A stretch of 64,000 bases of DNA, taken from contig CP126192.1 in NCBI GenBank assembly GCA_030272155.1, positions 4,560,501 to 4,624,500 on the forward strand. Reading direction: 5' to 3'. The notes beneath the pieces were generated by a model. That model was not told the DNA's origin and did not search any database. It saw only the letters and a list, made by a program, of their open reading frames with translations. This document shows, piece by piece, positions 107-64,000 of the stretch (position 1 is the first letter of the stretch; each line of letters starts with the position of its first letter). The position numbers and the translations under genes were made by a program. The DNA is from Tetradesmus obliquus. Its lineage: Eukaryota > Chlorophyta > Chlorophyceae > Sphaeropleales > Scenedesmaceae.

Positions 107-1256
107 GTATCACGCCGAACCCTAGTTAGTACTGAACCTTGGACATGTGGCGTGTTGGTGCTCATTGTGCATGGACGGGGGCAGCACTCTGAGGCGGGCA
201 CAGTAGCGCAGCCCTGAGTTGATTGGCTACATCACATTTAAAATGCAATGCTGCGCTGCGATGCTACAGCATTAAATTGTATTTTGCCTCACTGGGTCTA
301 GTAAAGAATCTCGCGCCATATATGCAGGGATGTAGCCAAGATCCCTATGCATCTATTGGCGTGCTCAATTGATGCGCTGCATGCGTGTGTGCTCTGGAAA
401 ACGAGTTTACGTATGTCCCTCCTCGCAGTTAAAAACGGCGGGGATAGGCAGGTTTTGCTGCGGCTGCGCTGCTTCGAGTGACACATAAAAATATGGAATG
501 TGTTTGCATGCAGCAGCAGGGCTGGCTGTGTGTTGTGTGTGGCGATCCAGGGCTGTGATGCGCTTGCCATGCCAAAGTGAACTCGTGATGCTTGCCCTGC
601 TTGATTGAGCTGAGTGCCGAAAACATGTTTTCTGAGTATCGAGATTTTGGTTGTGTTGCTGTTGTGAGGCGTGCTGCAGCAGCAGCCCAGCTTGTTCACC
701 TGATGCCTGCAAATAGCTCCTGTGGCCTTGCTGTGCTGCTGCGTGCTGATGAGAGCCCTGTGCCACGGGGGGGTTTCGATGCTATTGTGTGGTGCAAGTG
801 TGGGTGTAAAACAGGCGTCACTGAGGGGTGTCACCAGCAGCAGCAGCAGGCAGCAGGTTGGCAGTGTCTGCATTGGCCCTGTTCAAGGCTTCATTGTGTG
901 CTCAAGGTAACCACGATTATACATACGAAGCTGCGTTGGATAGTATTGCGGCCGTGCGCAACAGGCTGCATGTGAACGTGTGAGATTCTTTTCTCGACCC
1001 AGTGAAGCAGCACCACTTTTGGGGCCCCGGTTTAGGGCGCAAGTTGTCAGTGTGGCACAAGCCTGTAAATTCGTGATATAATTCATGGATGCAGTTCTTC
1101 TGTATGTGCTTAACATACGTGATGCCGCTCAGCGCGACAGCCTTAATACGCACAGCTCTGCCGTGGTGAAGTTCCAGTGCAGGCAGTTTCCCTGTGGACC
1201 TCGCGATATTCGCCTCTTCGCCTGTCTGCTTCCGCCCAATTTACAATCGAAATCGA
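107..1256. promoter_or_regulatory. Divergent spacer between transposase and nuclease genes (representative)
   Basis: This stretch separates the transposase ATG (106, minus) from the nuclease ATG of the next unit (1257, plus), so it should hold both promoters. Without the 715-bp element (290-1004) it is about 440 bp. A CCAAT box on the minus strand lies at 222-226, about 116 bp upstream of the transposase ATG. A TATA-like GATATAAT lies at 1075-1082, about 175 bp before the nuclease ATG. A GGGGCCCC palindrome occurs near 1021-1028. Equivalent spacers are 3789-4938, 7471-7908, 10441-11590, 14123-15272, 17805-18954, 21487-22636, 25169-26320, 28853-29290, 31823-32972, 35505-36654, 39187-39624, 42157-42594 and 45127-45564. 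Promoter function is inferred from layout only. Confidence 0.4.
290..1004. mobile_element. 715-bp CACTG-ended non-autonomous element, copy 1
   Basis: The left end reads CACTGGGTCTAGTAAAGAAT and continues CTC. The right end, reverse-complemented, matches over 23 bp with 2 mismatches (positions 10 and 13). The exact segment is missing at the same site in five other units, where only CTG or CAG remains between the same flanks. CACTG termini resemble the CACTA/EnSpm (CMC) superfamily, but no 3-bp target duplication is visible here (left flank CCT, right flank AAG), so the superfamily is uncertain. Open frames inside, such as 298-873 on the minus strand, look like noise; no transposase is encoded. 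It sits in the divergent spacer and lengthens it from about 0.44 to 1.15 kb. Confidence 0.8.
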
Positions 1257-3026
1257 ATGAGTGGTCACGCCGGAGCATTGCCGCAGCAAGCAGCCTCCGC
1301 AATGACAACAGCGGAGCCCGGGATGTCAACACCGGTGAGCTGCTGTTGCTGCCCGGGCGCTCGTTGTGCTGCCATAACAATCAATCATGTGAGCAGTATA
1401 TTAATAAGGATTGATCAGCTGCGCGTATATCAGCAGCACCGCGGCCGTGCTCCGCAGTTTGACCATGAAGCAGCAGCTGTCTCCCTGCAGCCACAGCTTG
1501 CTGCACTACAACACCAAGGAACGCCTTGACAGCCAAACTTGCGTGCCCAAATAATCAAAATACACTTCTTCATGCTACAAATGCTTCTGCTGCTTGCAGG
1601 GCATGCTTGAACTGCAGCCAGAAAGCCAACAACCTTGCAGCAGCAGCAGTACGAGCCAGCAGTGCGGCTCTGGCTGCCAGCACCACATGGAGACCAGGAG
1701 GAAAGGCAAAGCAGCCAACAAAGGTATGCTTATACTACAGCATATATTGTGCTTCACAACTAGAATAGCAGCTGCTGTGCATCTCAGCTGTAGGTGATGG
1801 CAGCCACAGCAAGGTGCCAGGGCAGCACTTGTTGCGCGCAACTTGTGTGCACTCTGTCTACCTGAAAGGGAATGGTGCATACAGGCCAGCATTGTCAATG
1901 ACTGCCTGGTAGGTGTATGGCAAGCTGTCCACATCAGCCTGGATTGAAGCAGGCTGTACATCATAGAACAACTGCTCCAGCTTATCCTGGCACTGCTGCG
2001 GGGTCGGCTTGCCCGGCCACAAGCTGCGGCGCCATGCCTGCAGTGCCTGGCTCAGGTATGCATGCACATGCTCGACCACCTTGTGCAGATCAGGACTGAG
2101 GGGACACAGGGCAAACCTGTGGTCTTTCGACCAGATGCCGTGCTCGTCCAGCTTGGCACGCGCGTGTGCGCTGTCGTTGTCACTGGACAACAGCCAGATG
2201 GGCTCCTCTCCTGGGTTCTGCTGCGTGTACGCCTGCCACAGCTCGTGCAGCCTCTCACGCAGATCCCGGATGCAATCCTCATACTCATCTGCTGTCATGC
2301 CCTTTGCTGGCTCACCCTTTCTGGTCTGCAGGCACAGGGCAGGTTGCAGGCAGCACACCACCAGCAGCAAAACCCGTGGGCAGGCCAAAGGGGTGTTTCA
2401 GCAATGAAGCCCAGCAGAGGTGGAGGCCAGGTTTAAACCACATGCTGCTTGAGAGCCATGCAGCCTACAGCAGCAGCAAGCAGTGCTTTACATGCAGGTG
2501 CAAGAACAGCAAGCATGTCAGACTGCTGGCACTGCAAACCGTGTCACGCGGGGACGCTTGCTTCAAGTGTCATGTGTGCAGCAAGAAGGGCAGCAAGTAC
2601 GAGAAGCAGCTGTATGCTTTGCTGAACAGCAACGCAGCTGTCACCGCATACGCTGTGGAGGCAGTGGCTATGGGCAGGAAGATACAGCTGCAGATACCTA
2701 ACAGCAAGCAGGGGCTGTGGCTGAACAGGCACAGATGGGATGCAGTGCTGCTGCAGCCGGATAGCTTGCTGATTGAGGTGCAAGGAGAGCAGCACATAGA
2801 CAAGGAGGACGGCAAGCGCAACAACAGGGGTGACACACTAGCAGACAGGCAGGCCAAGGACCAGGCATTGGCAGATGCAGCGCTGGCCGACGGTTTCAGT
2901 GTGCTGTGGCTGCACCCAGGTGCTGCAGATGATGTGCGGGGCCGCGCCAGGCGCTGGGCAGCAGCTGTGCAGGTGGCGCTGGAGCATGTTGCTGCCAAGC
3001 AGCGCCCCAAGCTGTTCAAGGCCTGA
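1257..3026 (+). CDS. Zinc-finger / PD-(D/E)XK-type nuclease, copy 1 (reference copy)
   Basis: The predicted exons are 1257-1334, 1600-1723 and 2332-3026, giving 298 aa. Introns are GTGAGC...TTGCAG (phase 0) and GTATGC...CTGCAG (phase 1); all phases fit. Residues 1-80 are low complexity. An AT-hook-like PVGRPKG lies at 82-88. A Cys cluster follows: C119, C122, C124, C144, C147, C150. The C-terminal domain has RWDAVLL (D204) then LLIEVQGEQH (E216, Q218, H222) and a basic/acidic helix with K243. This is the pattern of the restriction-endonuclease fold in DUF559/Vsr-like nucleases (established family pattern; the assignment is by eye). Exon 3 lies inside the intron of the minus-strand transposase, and its TGA ends 6 nt before that gene's donor. 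The N-terminal exons are the least certain part. An unspliced reading from 2166 exists but would translate transposase antisense. Confidence 0.65.
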
Positions 3027-3788
3027 ACTCACCCGGTAATCACAGCCGTCTCTGTCTGCTGCCATGCCGCTTGTGCCAGTGAAGAATTTGATCCACACAG
3101 GACCCAGCAGGTAGTTGACGCCAATGATGTACTTCAGCTTTGCCGCGCTGTTGTTGTAGCGGGGCACAGGTGTGCGCCAGTGCCAGTCCTCTTCACCAGC
3201 ACTGAACCAGCCCATGTAGGATTCCTTGCTCAAGCAGATCACCTTCTCATCCACCCACACCACAGCAGCCTTGTCAGCTTGCAGCCGCGCCTTATTTTCT
3301 GCGCTGACGTCGATTCTGCTCTGCCTGTGTTGGTCATCCAGGTAGGCCCTGTCGCGCACAACCCCATACTTAAAGCGGGGGTCAAACTCCTTGAGGTTGT
3401 TGGTCAGGGTCTCCGGAGTGATGCCGGCGCCCGTCACGATGTTGTGCACCACCGCGCTCTCAGCAATCAGCTGCTCCGCTGAGGTGTACGGACCCTGCCT
3501 GCCGGCCAACCACCAGTTGCGGGCCTCGACATAGCAAGCAGTTACCTGCCGCTCTGTCAAAACCTTGTGGCGCCCGCTGCTGTGGGCGCAACCCTCAACC
3601 ACGCCGTCGTCACCCAGGCGTGGGCCCCATATTTCAACGTATTCACCGGGGTTGCTGGGCAGGTCGTAGTGTGCAGCTTGCAGGCGCTTGCGGAACTCTG
3701 CTGTGGCGTCAACTAGATTACCAGAACTTGCCCTCCAGGCAAGGCCAGCAGTGTTTTGGTAGACTGGTGGATAGGTCATATGCTGCAT
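1858..3788 (-). CDS. Tc1/mariner-IS630-type DDE transposase, copy 1 (reference copy)
   Basis: Exon 1 is 3788-3033 (252 codons) and exon 2 is 2325-1858, giving 407 aa. The 707-bp intron starts GTGAGT and ends TGCCTGCAG, phase 0. The first ATG follows an in-frame TGA two codons upstream. Residues about 75-150 look like a helix-turn-helix DNA-binding region. The catalytic core has WVDEK (D180), SSDNDSAH (D301) and LSPDLHKVVE (E337). These match the Tc1/IS630 signatures D, DN..H and SPDLNPIE, with 35 residues between the last two acids. The triad is only complete after splicing. Without splicing, the exon 1 frame runs into about 64 junk residues. The enzyme would cut and join transposon ends in the nucleus. 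No terminal inverted repeats or TA duplications were found around the unit, so mobility is unproven. Confidence 0.8.
2326..2331. other. Palindromic CTGCAG used as splice acceptor on both strands
   Basis: On the plus strand TCTGCAG ends nuclease intron 2 and exon 3 starts at 2332. On the minus strand CCTGCAG ends the transposase intron and exon 2 starts at 2325. The six bases are intronic in both genes and mark the exact swap between coding on one strand and coding on the other. It is repeated in all 14 units. The evidence is consensus and matching phases, without transcript data. Confidence 0.6.
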
Positions 3789-3971
3789 GTATCACGCCGA
3801 ACCCTAGTTAGTACTGAACCTTGGACATGTGGCGTGTTGGTGCTCATTGTGCATGGACGGGGGCAGCACTCTGAGGCGGGCACAGTAGCGCAGCCCTGAG
3901 TTGATTGGCTACATCACATTTAAAATGCAATGCTGCGCTGCGATGCTACAGCATTAAATTGTATTTTGCCT

Positions 3972-4686
3972 CACTGGGTCTAGTAAAGAATCTCGCGCCA
4001 TATATGCAGGGATGTAGCCAAGATCCCTATGCATCTATTGGCGTGCTCAATTGATGCGCTGCATGCGTGTGTGCTCTGGAAAACGAGTTTACGTATGTCC
4101 CTCCTCGCAGTTAAAAACGGCGGGGATAGGCAGGTTTTGCTGCGGCTGCGCTGCTTCGAGTGACACATAAAAATATGGAATGTGTTTGCATGCAGCAGCA
4201 GGGCTGGCTGTGTGTTGTGTGTGGCGATCCAGGGCTGTGATGCGCTTGCCATGCCAAAGTGAACTCGTGATGCTTGCCCTGCTTGATTGAGCTGAGTGCC
4301 GAAAACATGTTTTCTGAGTATCGAGATTTTGGTTGTGTTGCTGTTGTGAGGCGTGCTGCAGCAGCAGCCCAGCTTGTTCACCTGATGCCTGCAAATAGCT
4401 CCTGTGGCCTTGCTGTGCTGCTGCGTGCTGATGAGAGCCCTGTGCCACGGGGGGGTTTCGATGCTATTGTGTGGTGCAAGTGTGGGTGTAAAACAGGCGT
4501 CACTGAGGGGTGTCACCAGCAGCAGCAGCAGGCAGCAGGTTGGCAGTGTCTGCATTGGCCCTGTTCAAGGCTTCATTGTGTGCTCAAGGTAACCACGATT
4601 ATACATACGAAGCTGCGTTGGATAGTATTGCGGCCGTGCGCAACAGGCTGCATGTGAACGTGTGAGATTCTTTTCTCGACCCAGTG
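3972..4686. mobile_element. 715-bp CACTG-ended element, copy 2
   Basis: Same termini and position as the copy at 290-1004, between transposase copy 1 and nuclease copy 2. The flanks are TTTTGCCT and AAGCAGC. Confidence 0.8.
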
Positions 4687-7653: not shown

Positions 7654-7656
7654 CTG
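7654..7656. other. Empty site / footprint (CTG) of the 715-bp element
   Basis: The flanks TTTTGCCT and AAGCAGC are joined by CTG only. This equals the first base plus the last two bases of the element (C...TG), so it reads either as an excision footprint or as the pre-insertion allele. Confidence 0.7.
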
Positions 7657-26066: not shown

Positions 26067-26320
26067 TGAAGCAGCACCACTTTTGGGGCCCCGGTTTAGG
26101 GCGCAAGTTGTCAGTGTGGCACAAGCCTGTAAATTCGTGATATAATTCATGGATGCAGTTCTTCTGTATGTGCTTAACATACGTGATGCCGCTCAGCGCG
26201 ACAGCCTTAATACGCACAGCTCTGCCGTGGTGAAGTTCCAGTGCAGGCAGTTTCCCTGTGGACCTCGCGATATTCGCCTCTTCGCCTGTCTGCTTCCGCC
26301 CAATTTACAATCGAAATCGA

Positions 26321-29035: not shown

Positions 29036-29038
29036 CTG
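29036..29038. other. Empty site / footprint (CTG) of the 715-bp element
   Basis: TTTTGCCT and AAGCAGC are joined by CTG, the same allele as at 7654 and 45310, but in a Tyr12 sequence background. Confidence 0.7.
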
Positions 29039-39369: not shown

Positions 39370-39372
39370 CAG
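39370..39372. other. Empty site / footprint (CAG) of the 715-bp element
   Basis: TTTTGCCT and AAGCAGC are joined by CAG. This equals the first two bases plus the last base of the element (CA...G), a different residue from the CTG sites. Confidence 0.7.
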
Positions 39373-42339: not shown

Positions 42340-42342
42340 CAG
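42340..42342. other. Empty site / footprint (CAG) of the 715-bp element
   Basis: Same CAG allele as at 39370, in the adjacent unit. The two were probably duplicated together. Confidence 0.7.
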
Positions 42343-45309: not shown

Positions 45310-45312
45310 CTG
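45310..45312. other. Empty site / footprint (CTG) of the 715-bp element
   Basis: The CTG allele, next to two CAG-type units that share the same silent C variant. Confidence 0.7.
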
Positions 45313-48279: not shown

Positions 48280-50978
<2,699 letters not shown>

Positions 50979-51540: not shown

Positions 51541-51873
51541 CTAAGATGATGGAGGGCATGACTTGCACCAGCGGCCGAATGCCTCCATCACCAGCTTGCG
51601 CACACAGATGTAACCCCCCTCCTTGTCATCTGTCCAAAAGCTAAAGCGCACACGCCGCTGCATGTAGCAACACGCTGCAGCATGTGTGGTGGGGCACACT
51701 TCATATGCAATCTTGAAGCATGCCTGGTTGTTGAAGACCTAGTGCAGCCAGCCAGGGGGCACCCACACACCCTGCCCAGCCTTTTGCTCAACCAACTTGG
51801 CGTGCTTGCCCATCTTTTCCAGCACATGGTGCATCATTGTGAGACTCAGCGGAAGGGTGCCATGCTTGCTGCC
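51541..51873 (-). pseudogene. JmjC/cupin-like dioxygenase C-terminal relic with in-frame stop
   Basis: On the minus strand one frame reads WDLLMGSKHG, later VWVPPGWLH, then a TAG (51739-51741), then VFNNQACFKIAYEV and on to a stop at 51541. VPPGWxHxV followed by a hydrophobic strand is the C-terminal part of JmjC/cupin_8-type 2-oxoglutarate, Fe(II)-dependent dioxygenases; the His would be a metal ligand. The TAG sits where a Trp codon (TGG) would fit. The frame is shifted by one from the open frame that precedes it (51788-52918). Two lesions in a row suggest a dead gene fragment. Readthrough or a missed intron is possible, but no good splice sites were seen. Confidence 0.45.
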
Positions 51874-53018
51874 CATCAGCAGATCCCAAGCTTGCTGCCG
51901 TTTTGGGTCTGTCTTTGTCCCACGCCGTCACAGCCTTGCTCGACAGCAGCGCATCCAACAACATGTCCAGCAATGCACGGTCCTTGAAGACAGCAGGACT
52001 GATTAACAACCAAGTAGCAAGCGCCGATTGCTGCAGCTGCTGCATTTGGTCTGACGGCAAGCCGGTATGCAGCAACCACGCAACCGTCACAGCAGCAGCA
52101 GGGTCTACATGGCCCCCCGTTCGGCTGCCTGCAGCCCCTACCAGAAACAACACGCCTGTTGTGAGCTTGCACGCCAGCATGCTGCCAACTGCAGCCACAC
52201 CAAACCTAGCAGCGATGACCCATGCTGTGATGAACAGCGCTGCAGCCACGTTGCTGACCATGTAACCAACCTTCTGTGCTGCACCCCAAATGAGGCTCTC
52301 TTTCCACTGTCCGACTTTGACCATTTCAGAAGGATTGCTGACATTGCTGCTGTCCTGCGTTTTGGCTGGTGCAGCCTTGGTATCCTGTTCATGGCCAGCA
52401 ACCTCCTTATGGGCGCCTGATGGCAGGTCTATCACAATGCTAGCCTGCAGGCGCTGCAGATATGCAGCAGCAACAGTGGCTGCGTGCGAGCTCTGCGCTA
52501 GCTGCTGCATGTTCCTCAATGCTTCGGCTATAGTGTAGCCTTGCTGCGTCTGCTGCTGCAGCATCGCCGCTGCCTCTGCCACAACATCTGCATGCTTGCC
52601 TGCAATTGCTGCCAAGGCCTCCTGTTCCTCACTAGGCTGGTGCTCAGCACTGTTCAGCAAAAGCAGCACCTCCTGTTGCGCTGCGTTGATGCCAAACCTG
52701 GGTGCTGTTCGGCTGCTTGTTGCACTGCTGCTGTCCTCGCTGTGTGGCTCCTCTCCTGCTGTGGCGCTGCTGTAGCGGCTGCTGTCCTCAGGATTGAACT
52801 GAGGATATGGGGCTGAAAGCGCCAACCGGTACTGCTGCTGCTGCTGCTGCTGCTGCAGCAACGTCTGCCGCAGATACGCTGCCGGGTGTGTTGCCAAACA
52901 TGACCTGCGGGTATCCAACAGCTCCTGCTGCTGCTGCTGCCGCGGCTGCTGGTGTGGACGCAGTCTGCGCTATGCCAGCAGCAGCAAAAAACTGTTGCTG
53001 CGTTGGCGTGGCCCACAA
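51788..53018 (-). CDS. Unknown Gln/Ala-rich protein, probably decayed
   Basis: An open frame of 376 codons runs 52918-51788. A second overlapping frame starts at the ATG at 53018 and merges with it only if a frame change occurs in the CAG/GCA repeat near 52830-52860, so the true start is unclear. The product has a poly-Gln run, an acidic Ser-rich stretch, a helical Gln/Ala-rich middle (MLQQQTQQG, YLQRLQAS) and hydrophobic segments around residues 210-260 (VSNVAAALFITAWVIAARFG, GVLFLVGAAG) that could be membrane helices. No family was recognised. The frame probably continued into the JmjC-like relic downstream before a frameshift. It lies inside the CACTA-like element, so it may be captured host sequence. 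Confidence 0.4.
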
Positions 53019-53028
53019 TGTTGCAGCT

Positions 53029-53050
53029 ACTGTTTTACTGCATGATGGCG
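53029..53050 (+). repeat. 22-bp direct repeat, left copy
   Basis: A 22-base match ending in GCATGATGGCG also occurs at 53327-53348, 298 bp away. This copy lies just upstream of the minus-strand ATG at 53018. Confidence 0.85.
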
Positions 53051-53326
53051 TTATTCAGCGCAAGGAACTGACGTGCAAGAGACCTGGTGCCTGAGAGCAA
53101 TTGATCGCAAGGCATGCCGGGAGGTCATACACCACAGTACTATGCTCAAAAGCCCTCAAGTAATCAATATAAAATTACATAAAACTTTTGCAGCACAATA
53201 TGCGGTGCTTGGAGGCTTGGGGCTCAATAAACACCCGTTGCTCTCAGTCGCTCTCAAGACATTTGAACTTGCCTGTCTTGACCAGTGGCCGCAAGCGTCA
53301 GCCTGACTGCAGGCTTCAACTTTGAA

Positions 53327-53348
53327 ACTGTTTTACTGCATGATGGCG
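53327..53348 (+). repeat. 22-bp direct repeat, right copy, spanning the plus-strand start codon
   Basis: Identical to 53029-53050; it contains the tandem ATGATG start at 53340 of the plus-strand gene. The duplicated segment between the copies acts as the divergent spacer of the two internal genes. Confidence 0.85.
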
Positions 53349-55296
53349 CTTGACAGCGAGATTGAAAGCGAGCCAGAAACTGATAAGAGGCAGCGATGTG
53401 TACTCGCGAAGGACTGCACAAAGACGCCTAACCCAGACATTCGTAATGGCAGGAACTGTGGCGTATACAAGGTCAACTGTGATGGCTGCCTCAAGCCGGC
53501 CTGCCACCCGGACTGCCTGGCAGTGCACAAGGAGCGCGGCTGGTGCAAAGGGCCACCAAATGAGGAGAAGGAAAAGAAGAAGAGGCGCCACCTGCGGGCT
53601 AGGCGAAAGGTGGGTTAGCAGAGGGCAGTTGGAAGCACCAGCAGTTGGAAACATCAAGTTGCCACATGTGGCCCTGTACAGGGGATATCACCGATCGCGA
53701 GCCATGACCAGTGGTTTGTGTCGACTGAATGCAGGCCAAGCATGGCTCTTTGAACAGTGAGCCTTGCCACAGTGATCACCTGGGCACCACAGCAGCAGCA
53801 GCAGCATGGCCACTGCACTCACAGCAGCACATGTTCAGCACTGCTGACTTGTGGCACACCACAACAGCAGCAGCAGCAGCAGCCGCAGCAGGAGCTGTGG
53901 GGCCACAGCAGTTCATGGAGCGCAGTGCATGCATCTGTTTGGTTTAGACGTTCAAAAATTAAGCTAAGCAAACATGCACGCATGCAGGCTCTGGCGCAAG
54001 CAGCACGGCATCAACCTGGGCAACCCCCCCGCTGCAGCAGCGGAGGCGGCCCTGCCTGCTGCTGCAGACGGTGCAGCGGCTGCCGCTGCAGTACCTGCAG
54101 CGCTGGACGGTGCAGCTGAGCCAGATGACAACATGCACGGTAAGTGTTGGGGTGCATATGTTGTTGGAATCAGCTGCATTTCAGGCCTTGACGAGCAGCG
54201 CTGACGGTCAACAGTAGAAGGTGTTGATGTAGGATTGCTGTTGCCCTGATGCCACAGGAATCAGTCCCAAGAATCACATGATACATCAACCACACTGCCC
54301 GTCAAGTCAGCACATAACACACACACACACACACATTTCAATCAATGTCTGTTGCTGAATGTTTTGCAGATGACGCCGTTGCAGGACCAGCAGAATGGCG
54401 GTGCCCGGCGCTGCATGACAAGAGCTTCAAGCAGGCATACCTGGAGGGCTTTGCTATGAGCCCTCCCGCGCCTAGCGGGGAGACGCAGCCTCGCAAGAAG
54501 CGCCACACGGCTGCAGCATCTAGTGGCACCAGCCTGCGGGCGGTGCTGCTGTGCACAGGCAACCTGGTGGACAGCAGCGGCGAGTACATCGATCCAGTGG
54601 TGCTGGGCGGGGGAGAAGTGGATGTGACAGCGCTGGTGGGTTGCAGCGCTCAAAAGAAGAAGTCTGCACTCAGCTGTTGATGCATGTGTGGCAAGTTGCA
54701 TGCCATCTGATAGAGGGTGCAGCCCTGAATGCAAGCTGCAAGCATTCGGTAGTAGCAAGAGATGACGGGTGCGTGTAAAAAGGTCAGGAAACACAAATGT
54801 TGCTGGTATCCGATGTTATGACAAGTTCAGTTGTCATCATAATGCTTTGCACTGACTTTGTGCGCCCTCTTGCCACCTTGCACTGCACGTTGCTTTGCAG
54901 GAGACCCAGGGCCTGACCCCGCTGCAGCTGCAGACCAGCGAGGAGGAGGCCTTTGACGTGTCAGCGATTGTCCAGGTCACCATCACCCACGTGTTCATGC
55001 CAGAGTTCAGGAGCAAGGTGGACGGCAAGGACGGCTACCTGGACAAGCCGCTGCTGTTTGGTGGGCTGAGGGACCGGCCAACCGGTGTGCCCACAGACAG
55101 GGGCGAGGTGCTGAACCTAGATGGAGGGGAGCTGCAGGTGGTGAGCTGGCCGCTGGCAGGTGTTTTCTTTGTGGACCCGTACACAGAGGAGAGCGCAACA
55201 TACGCACGCAGGCATATGCATCGTATGCATCGTATACAAACATGTGATGTTCTTGTGGCTGATCATGTGTTATGTGTTGTCTCTGTGAGGCCATGA
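53340..55296 (+). CDS. Unknown four-exon gene with N-terminal Cys-rich (zinc-finger-like) domain
   Basis: Proposed exons are 53340-53609, 54001-54139 (or from 54004), 54370-54635 and 54901-55296, about 356 aa; phases agree at every junction (0, 1, 0). Exon 2 ends with a strong GTAAGT donor; exons 3 and 4 follow TTTTGCAG and CTTTGCAG acceptors. Residues about 17-65 hold Cys clusters ending in VNCDGCLKPACHPDCLAVHK, similar in spacing to the Cys/His zinc ribbon at the C-terminus of piggyBac transposases; a basic KKKRRHLRARRK tail follows. The middle is Ala-rich, then comes a globular part (LRAVLLCTGNLVDSSGEYID; DVSAIVQVTITHVFMPEFRS). I do not recognise the family. The join of exon 1 to exon 2 is the weakest, and the 3' end after VFFVDPYTEE may be wrong. 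It lies wholly inside the CACTA-like element. Confidence 0.45.
54316..54334. repeat. Short (CA)n microsatellite
   Basis: About nine CA repeats in the intron between exons 2 and 3 of the plus-strand unknown gene. Confidence 0.9.
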
Positions 55297-55470
55297 GCTC
55301 CTTGTTGTGAGCCGCACACCATGTCAGCTCGATCACTGAAGTGTAGTCTGCTAGCAGCGCTGGCTGATGTCGCGGCTGCGCACTCACATCGCTTCATCAC
55401 ATGCAGCACGATCAGCGCATGTGCATGCGCACATGCTGAGCAGGACTAGTACTGCTGCAAAATATGAGCT

Positions 55471-55525
<55 letters not shown>
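55471..55525. repeat. (GAT)18 microsatellite
   Basis: About 55 bp of uninterrupted TGA/GAT repeat between the plus-strand unknown gene and the right subterminal region. Confidence 0.95.
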
Positions 55526-55679
55526 AAAGATGTGCACTTGGTGTGCACATGCACCATTTGTGCGCACGGCATGCATGCCATATGGTGCAATGGGTGTTGT
55601 ACAGTAATTGGAGCAGGTGTTTGCAGCGGTAAAGTCACCCAGATCCCAAGCAGCACCTGCATGGCAAGCCCCTGATCAC

Positions 55680-56044
55680 CCCCGCTGCCCCGTATTTGCT
55701 GAAAAAATTGTGCGCAGAATTCGGCAGGGAAAGACAGTGAATAATCCAGTCCCAGTGAAGATTTCCACCATTATCAGCGGCAGAAAGAGGTAAATTATTA
55801 CTCGATATAACTCGATTATCAACGATCTTTCAGTGCTGAAATACGCCGCTGAATTATCGCGCGCTTTTACTCGCGGTGAATTTTTCAGCAGCAGGCAGTG
55901 AATATTGCTCAAAAACACTGAAAGCACACTGAAAAGGCTACGCTGTTCAGCAAATTCAGCGTTTTCAGCAACATTAAGCAACATTAAGTGCACAGATTCA
56001 GCACTGAATACTGCTGGATTCACCAGCTGCCAGTGGCTGAAAGT
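55680..56044. other. Right subterminal region of the CACTA-like element
   Basis: Contains many GCTGAA, TTCAGC and CACTGAA motifs in both orientations, densest from 55870 to 56044. There are short A/T-rich blocks (TTATTACTCGATATAACTCG) and no supported gene. The density mirrors 51000-51150 at the other end. Confidence 0.55.
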
Positions 56045-56074
56045 TGCTGAAACAGGGGGGGTCAGTTGACAGTG
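56045..56074 (-). repeat. Right terminal inverted repeat of the CACTA-like element
   Basis: Inverse of 50979-51008 with one mismatch; followed by the CGT target-site copy at 56075-56077. Confidence 0.85.
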
Positions 56075-56077
56075 CGT

Positions 56078-57368
56078 CTTGTGTGGGTGTCGTAATGCTG
56101 CCTGTAAAGTGCAGCGATGGTGCGGCTGATGCCAAGTTTTTTGTCTTGCTGTCAGGTCAGACATATGAAGTGCGACGTCTAGCAGGAGTAGCGGCTGTTA
56201 CTGGGCTGTTGGGGGTGTCAGTTTGACGGGGGGCAAGAACATCATGCTGAATTGCCCCGGAGGTCGAGCTGAATGTCCGAACCAAATTATACTTTATCAA
56301 ACAACCTTTCGAGGCCACCTTGTAGTCTTTCAAAGGAGCTTCAGGCATTCGATGGTCAAACGGCTATCCTCGTCGCACACCGAGTGTCCAAGGTAACCGC
56401 CTGTCCTCATTAATATTAGTTTCTGGCATCTGCAACGAAAGGGCAGCTCACATGGCCGACAGAGTTCAGCAGTACGGCAGGGCACAGCAAAATCCATTTT
56501 GCATAAGTTATGGTGTTGTATGCTTTAGAGTGCTGCTGGCTCAACTTTGAACAAACAAGCATAGTGCAGTACTGTTGCATGCACCAGCAACCTGCATGAC
56601 CTACAACCTGCAACCTATGTTGACAGCTAGGCCCATCAGAATAACATCCAGTAAATGGCAGCAGCAGGCCCCCGTGAGACAGCAACCTGTCATTGCACAC
56701 CCTTCAACAGTGTTGTTCTGCCCCATAACCTGCAGGCCATGCTGGATGCTGAGTGTACAGAGAAACTTGTGATGCATTGGATGTATGCGTAGCTCACCAA
56801 CCTTAACGGGACTCAAAGCAGGTCCCATCACACCTGCTCCACAACACCGTGTATGAGCTGCCACGAAGCAGCCACGGAGCTGCCACAGAGCAGCGATGGA
56901 AAGCATACGGTTGCCAACACAACATCAGCCGATACAGGCAAAAGTGTAGAAACCAGCTGCAGCACACCAACGGGGTGCGGGGGCATTCAACTGCTCTGCT
57001 GTTGATGTCTGGATCTGGGGTCCAGATGCTGGGCACCTCCTGTGTAGGGTGCTGGACGTGTACTGCTAGTGAGGCACTGCCTCCCTTCCCTGGCAAGTAG
57101 GCTCCCCCAATTGTGATGAGGTGACGAGCCAGTGGGATTCAGTCCCTTTTGGTAACCAAAAAAGTTTAGTGTAAACCACTGCCAACCCAATCGTGAGGTT
57201 ATGGTGCTCCCTACTGCTGGCTGCCTGTCAGCACGTGCCATCACCAAGATTGGCAAGCTGTAAATGGTGTCACATAGTACCTGCTGGTTGTTGCAGAAGC
57301 CTGCAACCGCAGCAGCTCTTGCTGCTGCTACTACGGCTTGTGCCGCTGCAGCCGCAGCAGCAAGAGCT
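56078..57368. other. About 1.3 kb without a recognisable gene
   Basis: It holds the second copy of the 29-bp microsatellite-edge motif (56087-56115) and a 15-bp palindrome TTTTGGTAACCAAAA at 57147-57161. Short open frames here show no domain or codon pattern I can support. Its right end should contain the 3' UTR of the minus-strand co-chaperone gene. Confidence 0.5.
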
Positions 57369-58593
57369 TCATCCCATCAACGCCTGGTATGCTGCGCTGA
57401 CAGCTTTGAACAGCTCCTCTGCTGCAGCCCTGTCAGCCTGGCTGGCGCCTGGCGCCTGCTTGTCGGGGTGCAGCCGTGCAGCCAGCTGCTTATAGGCGCG
57501 CCGCACCTCCTCCCTGCTGGCCCCGCTGCTCAGCCCAAGCACCTGGTACAGCTCCTGCTGCCCCGCTGCCCTGTCGCTGGCGCTGCCCTTGCCACCTAAG
57601 CTGCATGGCGCTCCGCGTGTGATGCGGCTGTAGCGCCGCGGTGGCGGCGGCGCGGCCTGCACGGCGGCTCGTCGCTGCTGTGAGCACGCTGCTGCTGCTG
57701 TCTGCAGCGCCTCCCTGAGGCCTGGGTAGTGCGGCGCCAGGCTGCTGAGCTGCCTCAGGTCCAGGAAGCTGGCCTGGTGGCTGCCTGACGCTGCATGCGC
57801 CGCTGCGCGCTGCCACAGGGCGTCGGCGCAGTCGGGCTGCAGCTGCAGTGCTGAGTCAAGTGCCTGCGCGGGTTGCACCAGGCAGCCGAGTGCGCAGATG
57901 GAGGGTGGGAGCACAAGGATTCTGACAGAGTGGGCGGGTAACCGCACCAAGCAGCGCCACGTCAACACTAAGCATTCAGTTCATTGTAAGCTGCAGTGTG
58001 CACAAGGTGATGGTTCACCATGGCACCTGACTCATTCCACGGTACGCAGCTGCGTCAGCTGCCACACGTATGCTTGCACAGGGGGGACGCGGTAAAGACA
58101 CATGGACCCCTGTGGCCCCTACCTGGATGGCATGCTCGTGGTCCTGCAGCTGCGATGAGGTGGTTGCCTGCAGCAGCAGCACCCGGGCCGCAAGGCCTGG
58201 CGCGCAGCTGGTGGCTGGCTGTATGCTGGCCAGGCACGCTGCTGCCTGCTCCCTGGCAGTGTGCCAGGCGCCAGCTGTCAGGGCTGCCTCAGCAGCATAC
58301 AGCAGCGGCGCGACGCTTGTGAGCTGCTGCTGCAGCACCTGCTGCTGACTAAGCATATGGTCTCTGCAGAACTTCCCAATGTTGTTGAGGTGATGTTCTG
58401 CTGCAACCAGGTCACCTTGCTTGAATGCAAGCTGTGCCAGCAGCAGACTGGCCTCCTGGTTGCTGGTGCTGGTGCTGGTGCTGGTGCTGGTACTGCTACT
58501 GCTGCTGGCTGTTGCATGTGCTGACAGAAGTGCTGCTGCATCGTCTAGTCTGTTGCATTCCAGAAGAAACTTTGCTTGTTCAAACGGCTCCAT
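57369..58593 (-). CDS. TPR and J-domain co-chaperone (DnaJ family)
   Basis: Exon 1 is 58593-58123 (157 codons) and exon 2 is 57863-57369 (164 codons plus stop), giving 321 aa. The 259-bp intron starts GTAGGG and ends GCGCAG, phase 0. Splicing rebuilds a complete TPR motif across the junction (HEHAIQ joined to ALDSALQLQP). TPR-like helices fill residues 1-215, broken by a Ser/Thr repeat near 30-45 encoded by a microsatellite-like run. A C-terminal J domain spans about 261-321 with the HPD tripeptide at 289-291 (ARLHPDKQ), needed to stimulate Hsp70 ATPase (established). The architecture resembles DNAJC7/DNAJC3-type co-chaperones but is shorter. There is no signal peptide, so it is likely cytosolic. 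The start is the first ATG after an in-frame stop. It is divergent from the exportin gene. Confidence 0.8.
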
Positions 58594-59002
58594 GGTTGCA
58601 TTGGCGACGCCAGCAGCGTTGTGGAAGCCATATGCAGCTCCATTGCTTCCTTGTCAGACAACCTCGGATGGTCAAAATTCGGGGCCTTGGTTGCAGAGTC
58701 TTGACCCGCAGTCCCGCACCATACATCAACAGGAAAAACGTGATCACTAGCGTCCTAGCTGAGCTACCTGATGGTGGTGCGTATGTATTGCCATGTGTCA
58801 GTACAGCTTGTTATATGCCCTGGCCTCCCACACCAGCGTTGATTACGATAGCAGAACGAAAAGGAGAAGTTTCACGACACGATTGCTGCGCATAAAATAA
58901 GGATTGGAGTTCAGCCAGCGAACGTGCTCTGCTATTCAACCTGGTTGGCGCCCCAATTTGTCTGCGATGCTCTGATTTCAAACCTGATCGCATCGAGCAG
59001 AC
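58594..59002. promoter_or_regulatory. Divergent spacer of the co-chaperone and exportin-4 genes
   Basis: The spacer is 409 bp between the two start codons and must contain both 5' UTRs and promoters. No clear TATA box or CpG-rich core was identified. Confidence 0.4.
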
Positions 59003-60062
59003 ATGGCGTCGGTGGAGGATTGCAGGTCTGCTGTGGAACGCGCTTGCGTGGAATTTCAGGTGAGTAGGGAGGGGTCACCAGCTGGTTGCAGCAGTAGCAG
59101 CAGCAGCAGCAGTGCCAAGCAGCAGCAAGGAGAGCACAGCGACACATAAACCAAGTGCAAAGTCCCAGACGATATCGTGTACATATCCCTTTTTTATCGG
59201 ATTTTGCGCAGGGCTACTGTGCAGGGGTGCTTCATGTGTGCTCATCAAGTGGTGCAGTGACATGCTGCTCATGCTTCAATCAGTTGTTGTACCAGGTCTA
59301 GCTGCTGCTGATCATACCTCAGCACCGTGCATGCTCTGCTTGTACAGCTTTCACAGCAGAGTGTGTGGACGCTGCTTTTAGAACCCCACATGTCCCAAAC
59401 ACTGCCAGCAGCTGCCTCTCCCACCGTGCCACGCCGTGCATTTGCATTACCTGCCCATCTGCCCCTGCCCTCTGCCCCTGCCCACTGCCCCTGCCTCTTA
59501 CCCCGCTGCATGCTGAGAGCAGAACCCTGCCACGCAAGCGCAAGCGGAGCAGGTGCTGCTGCAGTTCCGTTGCAGCCCCGGCTCCCTGCCGGCCTGCAGG
59601 CACATCCTGGAGGCGTCAGGCAGCGCAGAGGCGCGCTTCCACGCAGCATGCACGCTGCGCGAGGCGCTGCTGCGCGAGTGGGCCACGCACACAGAAGAGG
59701 AGCGCGGCAGCCTGCGCAGCTACCTGCTGCAGTACGTGCTGCACCACGCGGGGGAGCCTCAGCTGCAGGTGGTGCGGGCCATCCTGCAGGGCACGCTGGC
59801 GGTGATGCTCAAGCGCAGCTGGCTGGACACGCCGCCTGAGGCACGCGCGGCCTTCTTCCAGGTCGGTGCAGCGTGGGGTGGCAGTGCCGCTGGCAGCTGC
59901 GCCAGGTGCAGCAACAAACGTATTATTGCCTGTGCTCAACAGCAGCGCACGCCAACTGACACAGATACATCACATTGGCGTGTTCACCACAGTCGCTGCC
60001 CAAATTTTCAACAGCAGGGCCCCCTATTGAGACCAGCAGCTCAAGTACATCGTGCTCTTGTC

Positions 60063-60093
<31 letters not shown>

Positions 60094-63000
60094 AGGAGTT
60101 GGACGCATCGGCCAAGGCTGCGGGCAGCCCCGCAGCTGCCGTGGTGTCGCTGCAGGTGATGGAGGCAGTGGTCAGCGAGTTCAGCCTGGTCACCGCCTCG
60201 GCGCTGGGCCTGTCATGGGAGTTCCACGAGACCTGCAGGAACCAGCTGGAGGTGAGGCTGCGAGGCATGTGCCACAGCAGCCACATGCCATGTGGCAGCT
60301 AGCAGCGTACATTGCAGCAGCATGACGTGCAGCAGCATGATGACGTGCAGCAGCATGACGGGCAGCAACATGACGCGCAGCAGCTGCTTCCAAGCCCGGC
60401 AGTGACTGCAGCTCACTGCAGCAGCAGTGCTGTGGCGCTACACCTGTGATGAACAGCACATGCAGCCGGCAACACCTGATGCATCATGTAGATGAGGTGC
60501 TGCTCGCACCAAGCGTTATTGGTGCACCTTTCACCCGTGCTCAAAATGGCGCAGGTCCAGTTGTCTGCGCTTGTTGTGTATGTGCCTGCAGGACCAGTTT
60601 CTACGGCAGATCTTTGAGCATGCATTGCGCAGCGCGCAGCAGGCAGCAGCGGAGGTGGCTGCAGCAGGCCCAGCAGGCGCTGCGAGTGCGCCCGCTGCTG
60701 CCGCGTGCACCGCGTCCATACAGCTGATGGCTGCCGTGCTGGCCTGGGACTTCAAGGCCACGCACAGCAGCTTCGTGTCTGCCTCGTCAGCGCTGAGGGG
60801 CGCGGCCATCACAGTGAGCAGCATGGCTGGCTGCAGCAGTCGCTGTAACGCAGCGGTCAGAGGCCATGCAGCAGCAGCAACAGCGCCAGGCATTGGCATC
60901 CAAATGTATTGGCTAATGCGTGCATGCGCCCTTCGTTGCATCCTCCGCATGGCGTCACCATGCCTTTGCACACTCTCTAGCTGCTCCTTCTGTACCCTGT
61001 CATGCCTGTGCAGAACCCGCAGGGCGGTCGCAAAGGGCTGCCGGACACCACGCAGGTCAAGCCTGGCGCACAGTGGGCAGACCTGCTGCTGCCTGCTGCC
61101 ACCACAGAGTGGCTGCTGCCGCTGATGGCAGTGCTGCAGGGCCCCGCTGCAGGCAGCCAGCTAGCACAGGCAGCACGGCAGCTGGTGGTGGCCTTCTGCT
61201 GCCTTGCAGGAGACGTGTTCCCCAAGCAGCCGGTCAGCGCAGCAGCAGCAACCGGTGCAGCGCCCGTGCCAGCAGCCCCTGTGACGGTGGCTCACGTGGC
61301 GCAGATGCTGCGGCTGGTGCTGCCGTGGTGCATGCCAGCGCAGCAGGCGCTGCAGGCGGCGCTGTCAGGCGATGAGGGCCAGCTGGTGGACGCCTGCAGG
61401 GCGCTGGCAGCACTCTGCATGGGACACAAGGTGGCAGTGCTTGAGGCAGCAAGCGCAGCACTGCAGCAGGGCACACAGCAGCAGCAGGTCAGCCTGTTCT
61501 CAGCGCTTGAGGAGCTCACGCGCAGCTTCCTGGTGGCTGGCGGGGTGTCTGCTGCAGCAGCGCCGGAGCCGTGGCTGCCTGACTGCACCGAGATGCTGCT
61601 GGAGTGCTGGAGCGGGCTGCTCACGCTGCAGTGCGGCTACGCCATGACAGCAGCGCCGCTGCCTCCGCAGGCGGTGGAGTGTGCTACGCGCCTGGGCGCA
61701 ACCGTGGTGGAAGCAGCCCTGGCTGATGCGGCTGCTGGTGCACATGAGGTGCGTGGTGGATGCAGCCTTGGCTGGGCTTGTGCTGGCTCCTGCTCCCCAC
61801 ACTCCCAACAGCACAGGCAGAGCAGGGGCTGTTTCTTGTGGCTCTGCTCATGTGTGGCAGTCGGTGATATGCTGCTGCATCTAGTTCTGCCAGCTCAGGC
61901 CGTGGTGTGGCGGACACATTGCCTCACCTCACGCTGCATGTGCTTGGAATGTCTTGCCTGCCTTATGAGCCGGCTTGACTGCCTGCTTGCCGCCTGCCTG
62001 GCTCCTGTTGCTGCTTGCAGGACGCTGACGATGACGAGGAGTCAGGCGCAGGCGCGGTGCACCAGGAGGAGTGGATGGTGCGCGTGGCCATGCTGCTGCG
62101 CGCCCAGCCCGCCGCCTCCTTCAGCCAGCTGAGGGAGCTGCTGGCGGCCAAGCAGCAGGCGCTGGCGCACGCCGCCAGCACAGCAGGCGACGCCAGTGAG
62201 CTGCTGGAGCAGCTGTACTGGCTGGCACGCATGGCTGCTCACGCGCTGGCTGACACAGGCGTGGGGGAGGTGCCCCTGCCTCCTGAGGCAGTGCTGCTGG
62301 CAGTCGGGGACAGCAGCCTCACCGCGGCTGCAGCAGCGGGTGCAGCGCCGCCTCAACAGCAGCAGCTGCAGCAGCAGCAGGCAGCTGCAGGCGCAGCTGC
62401 AGTGGAGCGGCTGTCGCGGGCGCTGCTGGAGCTGACCGCGCTGTGCCTGCAGCAGGCTGCTGCGGCTGTGGTGAGCTCGCGCCTGATGGAGGGTGCTGTG
62501 TGGGGTGCTGCGCGCTGGGCTGACACCTACCTGTTCCCTGAGGAGGAGGAGCCGCTGCCTGAGGCGCTGGAGGCGGCCTTTGGCGATGCAGCGGGGGCGC
62601 ACATCCTGGACATGCTGCTGCACGTGGCGCAGCACTGCCTGGCAGCCTTCCCTGGGGAGGCGGAGCTGCACAGACAGGTGCGAGGCGGCTGCTGCGCAGG
62701 CAGCCTGCGGCCCTACCTTGCTTGCCGCACACCAACACACACATGGTTGCAGCACCGATTCCGAATAAGCACTTCTATCAGCCCGGCACTGTTGTGCTGA
62801 GGTCCGTGCTGCTGCGCAGAATGATGACCTCAGCTGCTGCTGCTGCTGGTGCTGCTGCACCATGGTGTGTGCCGTGCAGGTGTGCCACACGCTGCTGCCC
62901 ACGCTGGTGCACCGCAAGCCGCTGTGCAGGCGCGTCGTTGCCATGCCCAGCTGGCAGGCGCTGGCTGCGGCCTTTGCGCGGCGCGATGCAGCGCTGACCA

Positions 63001-64000
63001 CACAGCTGTCGCAGAAGTTCCAGCGCGCGCTGTGCAGGAGCCTGTGCCTTGCTGCATCAGGGTTTTTGGATGAGGCGCAGGCGCAGCAGTACGTGTCACA
63101 CCTGCTGCTGCAGACCGTGAACGATGTCGCAGCGCTGGCTCAGCAGCAGCAGCTCGCCGCCATGGCGCAGCGGGCAGACGTGCAGCTGCAGGTGGGGTTC
63201 TGCGGCGTATCACTAAGCTCCGCTGGCTCCTGCTGCTCAGGATACGCTCACAACGCTCACAAAGCTGTGCCCGAATGCTGCCCGCGGCTTGCACTCAGGT
63301 CTCATCAGCTGTACAGAGTGCCTTCCAAAGTAATTGCTATGCTGCAACAGCTTGGCTGCACAACACTGCCTGCGCTGCTGCAGGTGTGCTGCATGCTGGA
63401 GGTGCTGCGCGGCGCTGCTGCGGGCGCGCTGCCCGCCACCTGCCCCGCGCTGCTGGGCCTGTTCAGTGGGCTGCTGGGGCCGCTGCTGGCGCTGCACGCG
63501 GCCTTCAAGCACGTTGCTCCCGTGGTGGCGCTGCTGCTGAAGCTGGCGGACGATATAGTGGAGAACGTTGGCGTGTACATTGAGGCGCCGCAGCAGCGGG
63601 AGCAGCTGCTCAACTGGACGCTGCAGCTGCTGATGCAGTACAGGGACAGCAACCTGTGGCAGGTGCGACCAGGCGGCCATGGGCGCAGCCTCGCCTCATG
63701 CAATAGAGAAGCTGTTAGTCTCGGTGCATTGGTAGAGGTGCTCTCTGATTGTACTTTCAAGCACCTGCCTTTGCTTGCCTTGATGGCTATGAGCTTTCAT
63801 GCTTCACCCTCCTGCAAGTATCTGCCTACTGTTTAGCAACCAGCTGTCATCATAATAAATCACAGCTGCTCATGGTTACTGCTGCAGGTGTCTCTCCAAA
63901 CAGCCAAGTCCCTCAAGGAGGACCGCGCAGCAGAGCAGTGCAGGGACTTACGTGCAGTGCTCAACCTGCTCATACACATCACGCAATCGGACTTCTCAGC
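59003..64000 (+). CDS. XPO4: Exportin-4 (nuclear transport receptor), 5' part, cut by the window edge
   Basis: Exportin-4 is a RanGTP-dependent importin-beta superfamily receptor that exports eIF5A and other cargo from the nucleus in animals (established). Nine exons are visible: 59003-59059, 59523-59861, 60096-60251, 60592-60813, 61014-61748, 62021-62677, 62880-63191, 63384-63662 and 63888-64000. Every junction is phase 0 with GT...CAG ends. This gives 956 codons so far; family members are about 1150 aa, so the C-terminus lies outside. Recognition rests on colinear matches through the N-terminal half: CRHILEASGSAEARFHAACT, VMLKRSWLDTPPEA, LGLSWEFHETCRNQLE followed by DQFLRQIFEHAL and VLAWDF, and a late helical block (LLKLADDIVENVGVYIEAPQ). 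Ala/Gln insertions (for example around 62330-62400) are typical of this genome. The acceptor of exon 2 could be 3 bp further left. Confidence 0.9.
60067..60095. repeat. (CTG)n tract forming the polypyrimidine/acceptor region of exportin-4 intron 3
   Basis: About nine CTG triplets end in CTGCAG directly before exon 3 (60096). Unspliced, the frame stays open as poly-Leu, so loss of splicing here would insert Leu residues without an immediate stop. Confidence 0.8.

Follow-up and report, generated by a model that had tools for sequence, protein, structure and literature searches.

Interlocked transposase and nuclease genes as cargo of a probable composite-like transposon in the green alga Tetradesmus obliquus

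How do two genes on opposite strands come to lie within each other's introns, and what kind of DNA carries such a pair? A sequence-only reading of a locus in the green alga Tetradesmus obliquus (contig CP126192.1, positions 4,560,501 to 4,624,500; this whole stretch of 64,000 nt is called the window) had described a transposase gene and a nuclease gene interlocked exon-in-intron. We find that the pair belongs to one unit of a larger tandem array and is the probable cargo of a composite-like transposon (Table 1). A complete element reads DR–core–DR, in which the DR is a direct repeat of about 715 nt, with inverted ends CACTGGG…CCCAGTG in the family found in the window (family A). Array units measure 3682 nt with a DR or 2970 nt without one (one measures 3684 nt), and the 712-nt step between the two lengths reflects replacement of the 715-nt DR by a 3-nt remnant. 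Units of the window array are 99.9–100% identical to one another, and its 14 cores show 0 to 2 base differences from the first core over 2967 nt. About 850 nt of the core lies outside the exons of both genes, too little for a reverse transcriptase, which disfavours an LTR retrotransposon. The array has no readable pair of target-site duplications (TSDs) because its left end is truncated; its right end lies directly at an uninterrupted (GT)857 microsatellite, which possibly belongs to the insertion target. Beyond the array, frames at 51788–63836 resemble ordinary host genes, including one from 59517 on that by eye resembles an exportin, and the array thus seems adjacent to normal genes.

Table 1. 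Features of the family A array and of its first complete unit, numbered from the first letter of the window
Feature	Position	Strand	Remark
Family A tandem array, 14 cores in window	1–48994	+	ends exactly at DR end ...GACCCAGTG; continues leftward beyond window
DR, first of 10 complete in window	290–1004	+	715 nt; own inverted ends CACTGGGTC...GACCCAGTG
Core of first complete unit	1005–3971	+	between two DRs
Nuclease exon 1	1257–1334	+	proposed; without confirmation by homology
Nuclease exon 2	1600–1723	+	donor G/GTATGC
Nuclease intron 2	1724–2331	+	contains transposase exon 2 antisense
Transposase exon 2	2325–1858	minus	catalytic D301 and E337, then stop
Palindromic CTGCAG	2326–2331	both	proposed acceptor for each gene
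Nuclease exon 3	2332–3026	+	cysteines (zinc-finger-like) and E...D...ExxGEQH...D; stop TGA 3024–3026
Transposase intron	3032–2326	minus	GTGAGT...CTGCAG, phase 0; contains nuclease exon 3 antisense
Transposase donor GTGAGT	3032–3027	minus	
Transposase exon 1	3788–3033	minus	252 codons; first catalytic D is residue 180
Next DR	3972–4686	+	5' side of unit 1 transposase gene; inverted ends
DR excision footprint CTG	7654–7656	+	core–core junction
Extra TG	26067–26068	+	2-nt duplication at DR/core border before core 8
DR excision footprint CTG	29036–29038	+	core–core junction
DR excision footprint CAG	39370–39372	+	core–core junction
DR excision footprint CAG	42340–42342	+	core–core junction
DR excision footprint CTG	45310–45312	+	core–core junction
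Last DR of array	48280–48994	+	
(GT)857 microsatellite, uninterrupted	48995–50708	+	1714 nt; adjoins DR end directly

The coordinates first proposed for the two antisense genes prove correct in the sequence, and the intron phases are consistent. Nuclease exon 3 fills the intron of the transposase gene, which comprises 407 codons over two exons, and transposase exon 2 in turn sits within nuclease intron 2; the assertion that no coding base is common to both strands likewise holds. The nuclease stop codon, which had been placed close to the transposase donor, directly adjoins the complement of the GTGAGT hexamer. Removal of the transposase intron can be inferred because the three catalytic residues are divided between the two exons, the first catalytic D being separated from D301 and E337, and with the intron retained the frame would stop at 2838. 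When translations are compared by eye, the donor of nuclease exon 2 keeps its phase in families A–C, and family D agrees less clearly. Transcription of the two genes is convergent, and the proposed start codons lie at distances of 252 nt and 183 nt from a DR; because of these short distances the DRs may serve as their promoters, and a core without an adjoining DR might be silent on its DR-less side. From this layout both proteins may be made, as first proposed, and the opposite pre-mRNAs might pair into dsRNA.

Searching the alga's own genome (one genome of 104.66 Mb in 17 contigs; match counts are lower bounds) returned at least 125 nuclease-exon matches for families A–D, fragments counted, and at least 147 for families E and F, with transposase exons beside the matches. 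In all six families examined an antisense nuclease exon lies between transposase exons 2 and 1 (exon 2 of family F was identified by eye only), and the interlock persists where identity to family A falls to 22% for the E transposase and to 19% for the F nuclease. A search for homologues with the same layout had been named as a check on the interlock, and both frames are kept in 6/6 families, with some single copies broken. The family C transposase looks broken by a frame change in exon 1 and, in one copy, a stop in exon 2. In family D, two single copies seem defective, one in each gene: L030 in its transposase frame and L031 in its nuclease. Broken copies (the C and L030 transposases and the L031 nuclease) were excluded from the protein rows concerned, and the transposase alignment consists of four rows, A, B, D and E, with F outside it.

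Comparison of families A and B gave dN/dS values of 0.265/0.595 = 0.45 for nuclease exon 3, 0.460/0.883 = 0.52 for transposase exon 1 and 0.435/0.997 = 0.44 for transposase exon 2. In the same pair of families the coding frames are free of stops and each antisense frame contains stops in both. These ratios, the stop counts and the conservation of the layout rule out chance antisense frames, and, judged from the A–B comparison (dN/dS about 0.5), both interlocked genes are real and under purifying selection. DRs of A and B share 68% identity and the non-coding first 600 nt of their cores 39–49%, so the DR too may be under constraint, with recent exchange as an alternative.

Splice signals divide the interlock into constant and variable parts. 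The donor hexamer GTGAGT is present in 6/6 families, with the nuclease stop directly beside it in A, B and D and at a distance of 3 nt in C, 11 nt in E and 8 nt in F. The palindromic CTGCAG had been proposed as a single acceptor used by both genes. This stands for A and B, where the motif is predicted from sequence to serve both acceptors, and fails for C and D, which have two separate acceptors with 16–17 nt between the exons; in E and F CTGCAG occupies the same place, adjoining the transposase exon, and a nuclease splice there is outside the model. At a minimum, the interlock is a compaction of long standing. That it is nothing else, convergent genes having grown by drift into mutual introns without a regulatory role, is a fairly probable account and one compatible with the transposon reading: the element is short, C and D lack the shared acceptor and still have the layout intact, and the genes of the animal transposon KolobokP (Kojima and Bao 2022, PMC9587614) are likewise on opposite strands in the portion of that paper on which we draw. 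Against drift, all six families have both the layout and GTGAGT, whereas a purely neutral arrangement might have disappeared from some of them.

We compared the transposase with known enzymes through a profile of the four exon-joined sequences. Below E 1, its PDB matches are all SETMAR and Mos1 chains, with a best E of 2.6e-6. The alignment sets D180, D301 and E337 opposite mariner positions that we take to be the catalytic residues, and all three are invariant in 4/4 rows with DD35E spacing. The NCBIfam IS630 model matches three of the four transposases (best E 1.2e-8), member 1 scoring 18.6 bits, far short of the curated cut-off, 100 bits, and Pfam DDE_3 matches one of the four (E 1.3e-6). 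Pfam searches of the four left member 1 (family A) without any family and returned neither CACTA/EnSpm nor Kolobok types. By its catalytic domain the protein thus appears to belong to the IS630/Tc1/mariner superfamily.

Insertion sites point to a mobile element. Our TSD reading covered 11 insertions; the C6 array, the family A copies on C16, the arrays of E and F, and fragments L026–L028, L031 and L036–L038 lie outside it. In A, B, E and F together, 8/9 of the insertions read carry duplications of 3 bp: at solo DRs of family A on C4 (GAG), C15 (CCT) and C10 (CAC), at a family B DR–core–DR monomer on C8 (TAG) and a family E monomer (GTA), and as one pair around the whole of a 16-core family A array on C10 (TTG), a 61-core family B array of about 222 kb on C17 (CAG) and a 16-core family B array on C3 (GAT). 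The ninth, a family F monomer, has no exact duplication (AGA/ATA), and the single insertions read in C and D have 4-bp duplications (CTTT and AGAG). For the family B insertion on C8, a neighbouring paralogous repeat carries the unoccupied site. Array core counts come from the own-genome search and array edges from fetched sequence; 40/133 and 40/135 DR candidates were scored, and because this is a part of the candidates the number of solo DRs is a lower bound. At G000:C10:5211950-5217000 (L052), a solo DR (TSD CAC) precedes a tandem repeat of 1355 nt in which 588 nt of DR is joined to CCCTAAA telomere-like repeats. The family E array at G000:C13:1.053-1.266 Mb holds at least 51 nuclease copies, of which four listed ones are inverted (1148737, 1227571, 1231878 and 1236185); the arrays of A and B run head-to-tail.

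The same sites bear on a plainer account, in which the arrays are passive satellites or segmental tandem duplications that carry open frames by chance. Unit identities of 99.9–100% would suit it, and unequal exchange alone can enlarge arrays. Yet monomers and solo DRs with TSDs occur on other chromosomes, one with an empty site, both genes show purifying selection, and the same anatomy recurs in six divergent families; the duplications together with the excision footprints described below largely refute this account, to which we give next to no credence. We regard the element instead as very probably a composite-like DNA transposon with an IS630/Tc1/mariner transposase, a reading drawn from sequence comparison.

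The type of transposon needs separate weighing, as Tc1/mariner elements are known for TA target duplications. TA is the TSD at 0/8 of the 3-bp sites and the TA dinucleotide is missing from 6/8, and these non-TA duplications, unusual for such a transposase, would count against a mariner-type reading. CACTR ends and 3-bp duplications are hallmarks of CACTA/EnSpm elements, and an element of this type, with the mariner likeness of its transposase reduced to remote DDE similarity, would account for the CACTG...CAGTG ends and 3-bp TSDs of families A and B. Across families the resemblance is uneven: C shares the CACTGGG ends of A and B but has a 4-bp duplication, E (CACTAGG/CAGTGGG) is alike on the CACTA side, and D (CAGTAGG) and F (CAGCTGGG) begin otherwise. 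EnSpm is missing from the Pfam matches of the four transposases, and the matches obtained, in which the catalytic residues are collinear, are to IS630, DDE_3 and Mos1/SETMAR; this makes a CACTA/EnSpm-type element very unlikely and argues for the IS630/Tc1/mariner assignment.

Excision of the DR has left traces inside the arrays. Within the window, five of 13 junctions between cores lack a DR, three reading GCCT-CTG-AAGC and two GCCT-CAG-AAGC. In other families DR-less junctions read CTG twice in B (L051, L058), CAG in C (L029), one CTG and one CAG in E (L033) and CAG in F (L056), so that C(A/T)G is present at 11/11 such junctions read, five in the window, two each in B and E and one each in C and F; unit spacings on C17 and C6 point to more, outside the 11. 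Since copies of a junction spread within arrays, the 11 should not be counted as separate events; two kinds of footprint each for A and E, and one or more in each of B, C and F, suggest at least seven independent excisions. Excision by Tc1/mariner transposases proceeds through a staggered cut and leaves behind a few of the element's terminal bases as a short footprint. Given CA…TG ends, the overhangs from a cut staggered by 2 nt could meet with one A:A mismatch, which repair would turn into CAG or CTG. The extra TG before core 8 would fit a 2-nt stagger as well. The reverse order of events, insertion of the DR into a pre-existing core, is disfavoured by the two footprint types and by the inner core/DR borders, at which A, C, D, E and F have no duplication of 3 bp (B has AGT/AGT), a lack that is also a point against the composite-like reading. 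In A, E and F short inverted repeats formed by the core's own ends lie at the DR borders (for example GCCTT/AAGGC in E), so that the inverted ends of the DR continue outward into core sequence.

A single scheme could link these structures. Since each DR carries a left and a right transposon end, the transposase can in principle mobilise either the whole element or a DR alone. Pairing of the left end of the first DR with the right end of the second would move the whole element. Pairing of the two ends of one DR would release that DR, giving both solo DRs and DR-less core–core junctions, and solo DRs would then arise through transposition and not through DR–DR recombination. Arrays would grow in place by recombination between DRs, which is probable because they stay within one target duplication, and breaks made by a homing-type nuclease probably stimulate this recombination. 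Ordinary unequal exchange without a nuclease would, however, give an identical picture.

What the antisense gene encodes therefore matters to the scheme. Its main exon has conserved cysteines and, in families A–D, the pattern E…D…ExxGEQH…D, the E of ExxG being Q in E and F. A PHROGs search with six members, at E up to 1, gave matches of four to phrog_4538 (unknown function, best 2.2e-7), of four to the homing endonuclease phrog_9084 (best 3.8e-4) and of two to phrog_559, labelled HNH endonuclease (best 1.7e-4); a zinc-finger family matched 2/6, and unrelated labels such as head closure 2/6. Pfam DUF559 reached E 0.22 in one of five members and had no match in the own-genome search, and no firm match to the nuclease was obtained in the PDB. 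No relatives were found in viral contigs; searches with the nuclease alone gave none in bacterial or archaeal genomes, nor, with A and D as queries, in phage records. A single-sequence structure model of nuclease exon 3, at pLDDT 40.8, was too poor for use. From these matches we assign the product, with moderate confidence, to the homing-type nucleases, a PD-(D/E)XK or VSR-like fold and active site being one candidate.

A different role is conceivable, in which the nuclease joins the transposase in the cut itself instead of promoting array growth as a homing enzyme. TnsA acts in this way with TnsB in Tn7 cutting, the two algal genes are kept together in 6/6 families, the nuclease shows E, D, ExxGxxH, an active-site pattern of restriction-like type, and non-TA duplications suggest an unusual transposition chemistry. 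Against such a partnership, the functionally labelled nuclease matches are all phage endonucleases, one of them homing, and the footprints are of a kind that a mariner-type transposase makes alone; KolobokP, in the account available to us, joins a different transposase to a different homing nuclease. We consider joint cutting unlikely, if well worth keeping in view, and retain the homing-type reading.

No earlier report of the algal element was found in open-licence full-text literature, with Repbase outside the scope of that search, and the closest known system is KolobokP, which the element is like without being a member. In the sections of the KolobokP paper on which this comparison draws (PMC9587614), long terminal direct repeats (LTDRs) with short inverted ends surround an internal region (INT) that encodes a DDE transposase and, on the complementary strand, a homing nuclease; solo LTDRs, repeat excision and multimers (LTDR-INT)n-LTDR with target duplications at their extreme ends are described, and a model is proposed in which nuclease-made breaks drive array growth. 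The LTDR-INT-LTDR plan, the solo repeats and the multimers within one TSD are all matched by the algal element, whose arrays, reaching 61 cores, can be set against the multimers described there. By contrast, the KolobokP transposase is of Kolobok type with a 4-bp TTAA duplication, whereas the algal enzyme matches IS630/mariner and the algal duplications are mostly of 3 bp. The KolobokP nuclease is described as His-Me (I-PpoI-like), and the algal one, which shows E...D...ExxGxxH and is classed by weak profile matches, one of them labelled HNH, may be of another type. KolobokP excision deletes 1–5 flanking bases on one side, whereas algal excision leaves C(A/T)G, and the exon-in-intron interlock is a feature of the algal element that we did not see in these parts of the KolobokP description. 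Because the transposase and the target duplication differ, the likeness is apparently convergent.

This looks like an independent origin of a composite-like architecture that, in the literature as far as it is covered here, we otherwise found described only for KolobokP, and it makes the question of why direct repeats are combined with a homing nuclease a comparative one. One speculative synthesis, which we hold as less than an even prospect, is that composite transposons pairing a transposase with a homing nuclease evolved at least twice, from Kolobok in animals and from IS630/mariner in this alga. The transposase would found new sites, the nuclease would multiply arrays by cutting DRs with subsequent unequal repair, the interlocked introns would prevent loss or duplication of either gene singly, and the opposite pre-mRNAs would limit each other. 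On the composite-like transposon reading by itself, long satellite-like arrays in an algal genome would be explained as a transposon multiplying in place, and the pair offers a conserved, experimentally accessible example of two genes within each other's introns.

Other known systems share single parts of this plan. Bacterial composite transposons and IS26-type pseudo-composites, as treated in the same partial source (PMC9587614), likewise have two end-bearing units around an interior, and unlike them the algal element has its genes in the interior and not in the repeats. The IS630/Tc1/mariner elements Mos1 and Hsmar1/SETMAR are alike in transposase profile, collinear catalytic residues and a short excision footprint. 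The TA duplication is theirs and is absent from the algal element, where an IS630/mariner-type transposase appears to be associated with non-TA duplications; to their plan the algal element adds long direct repeats, a second, nuclease gene and an intron that contains an antisense gene.
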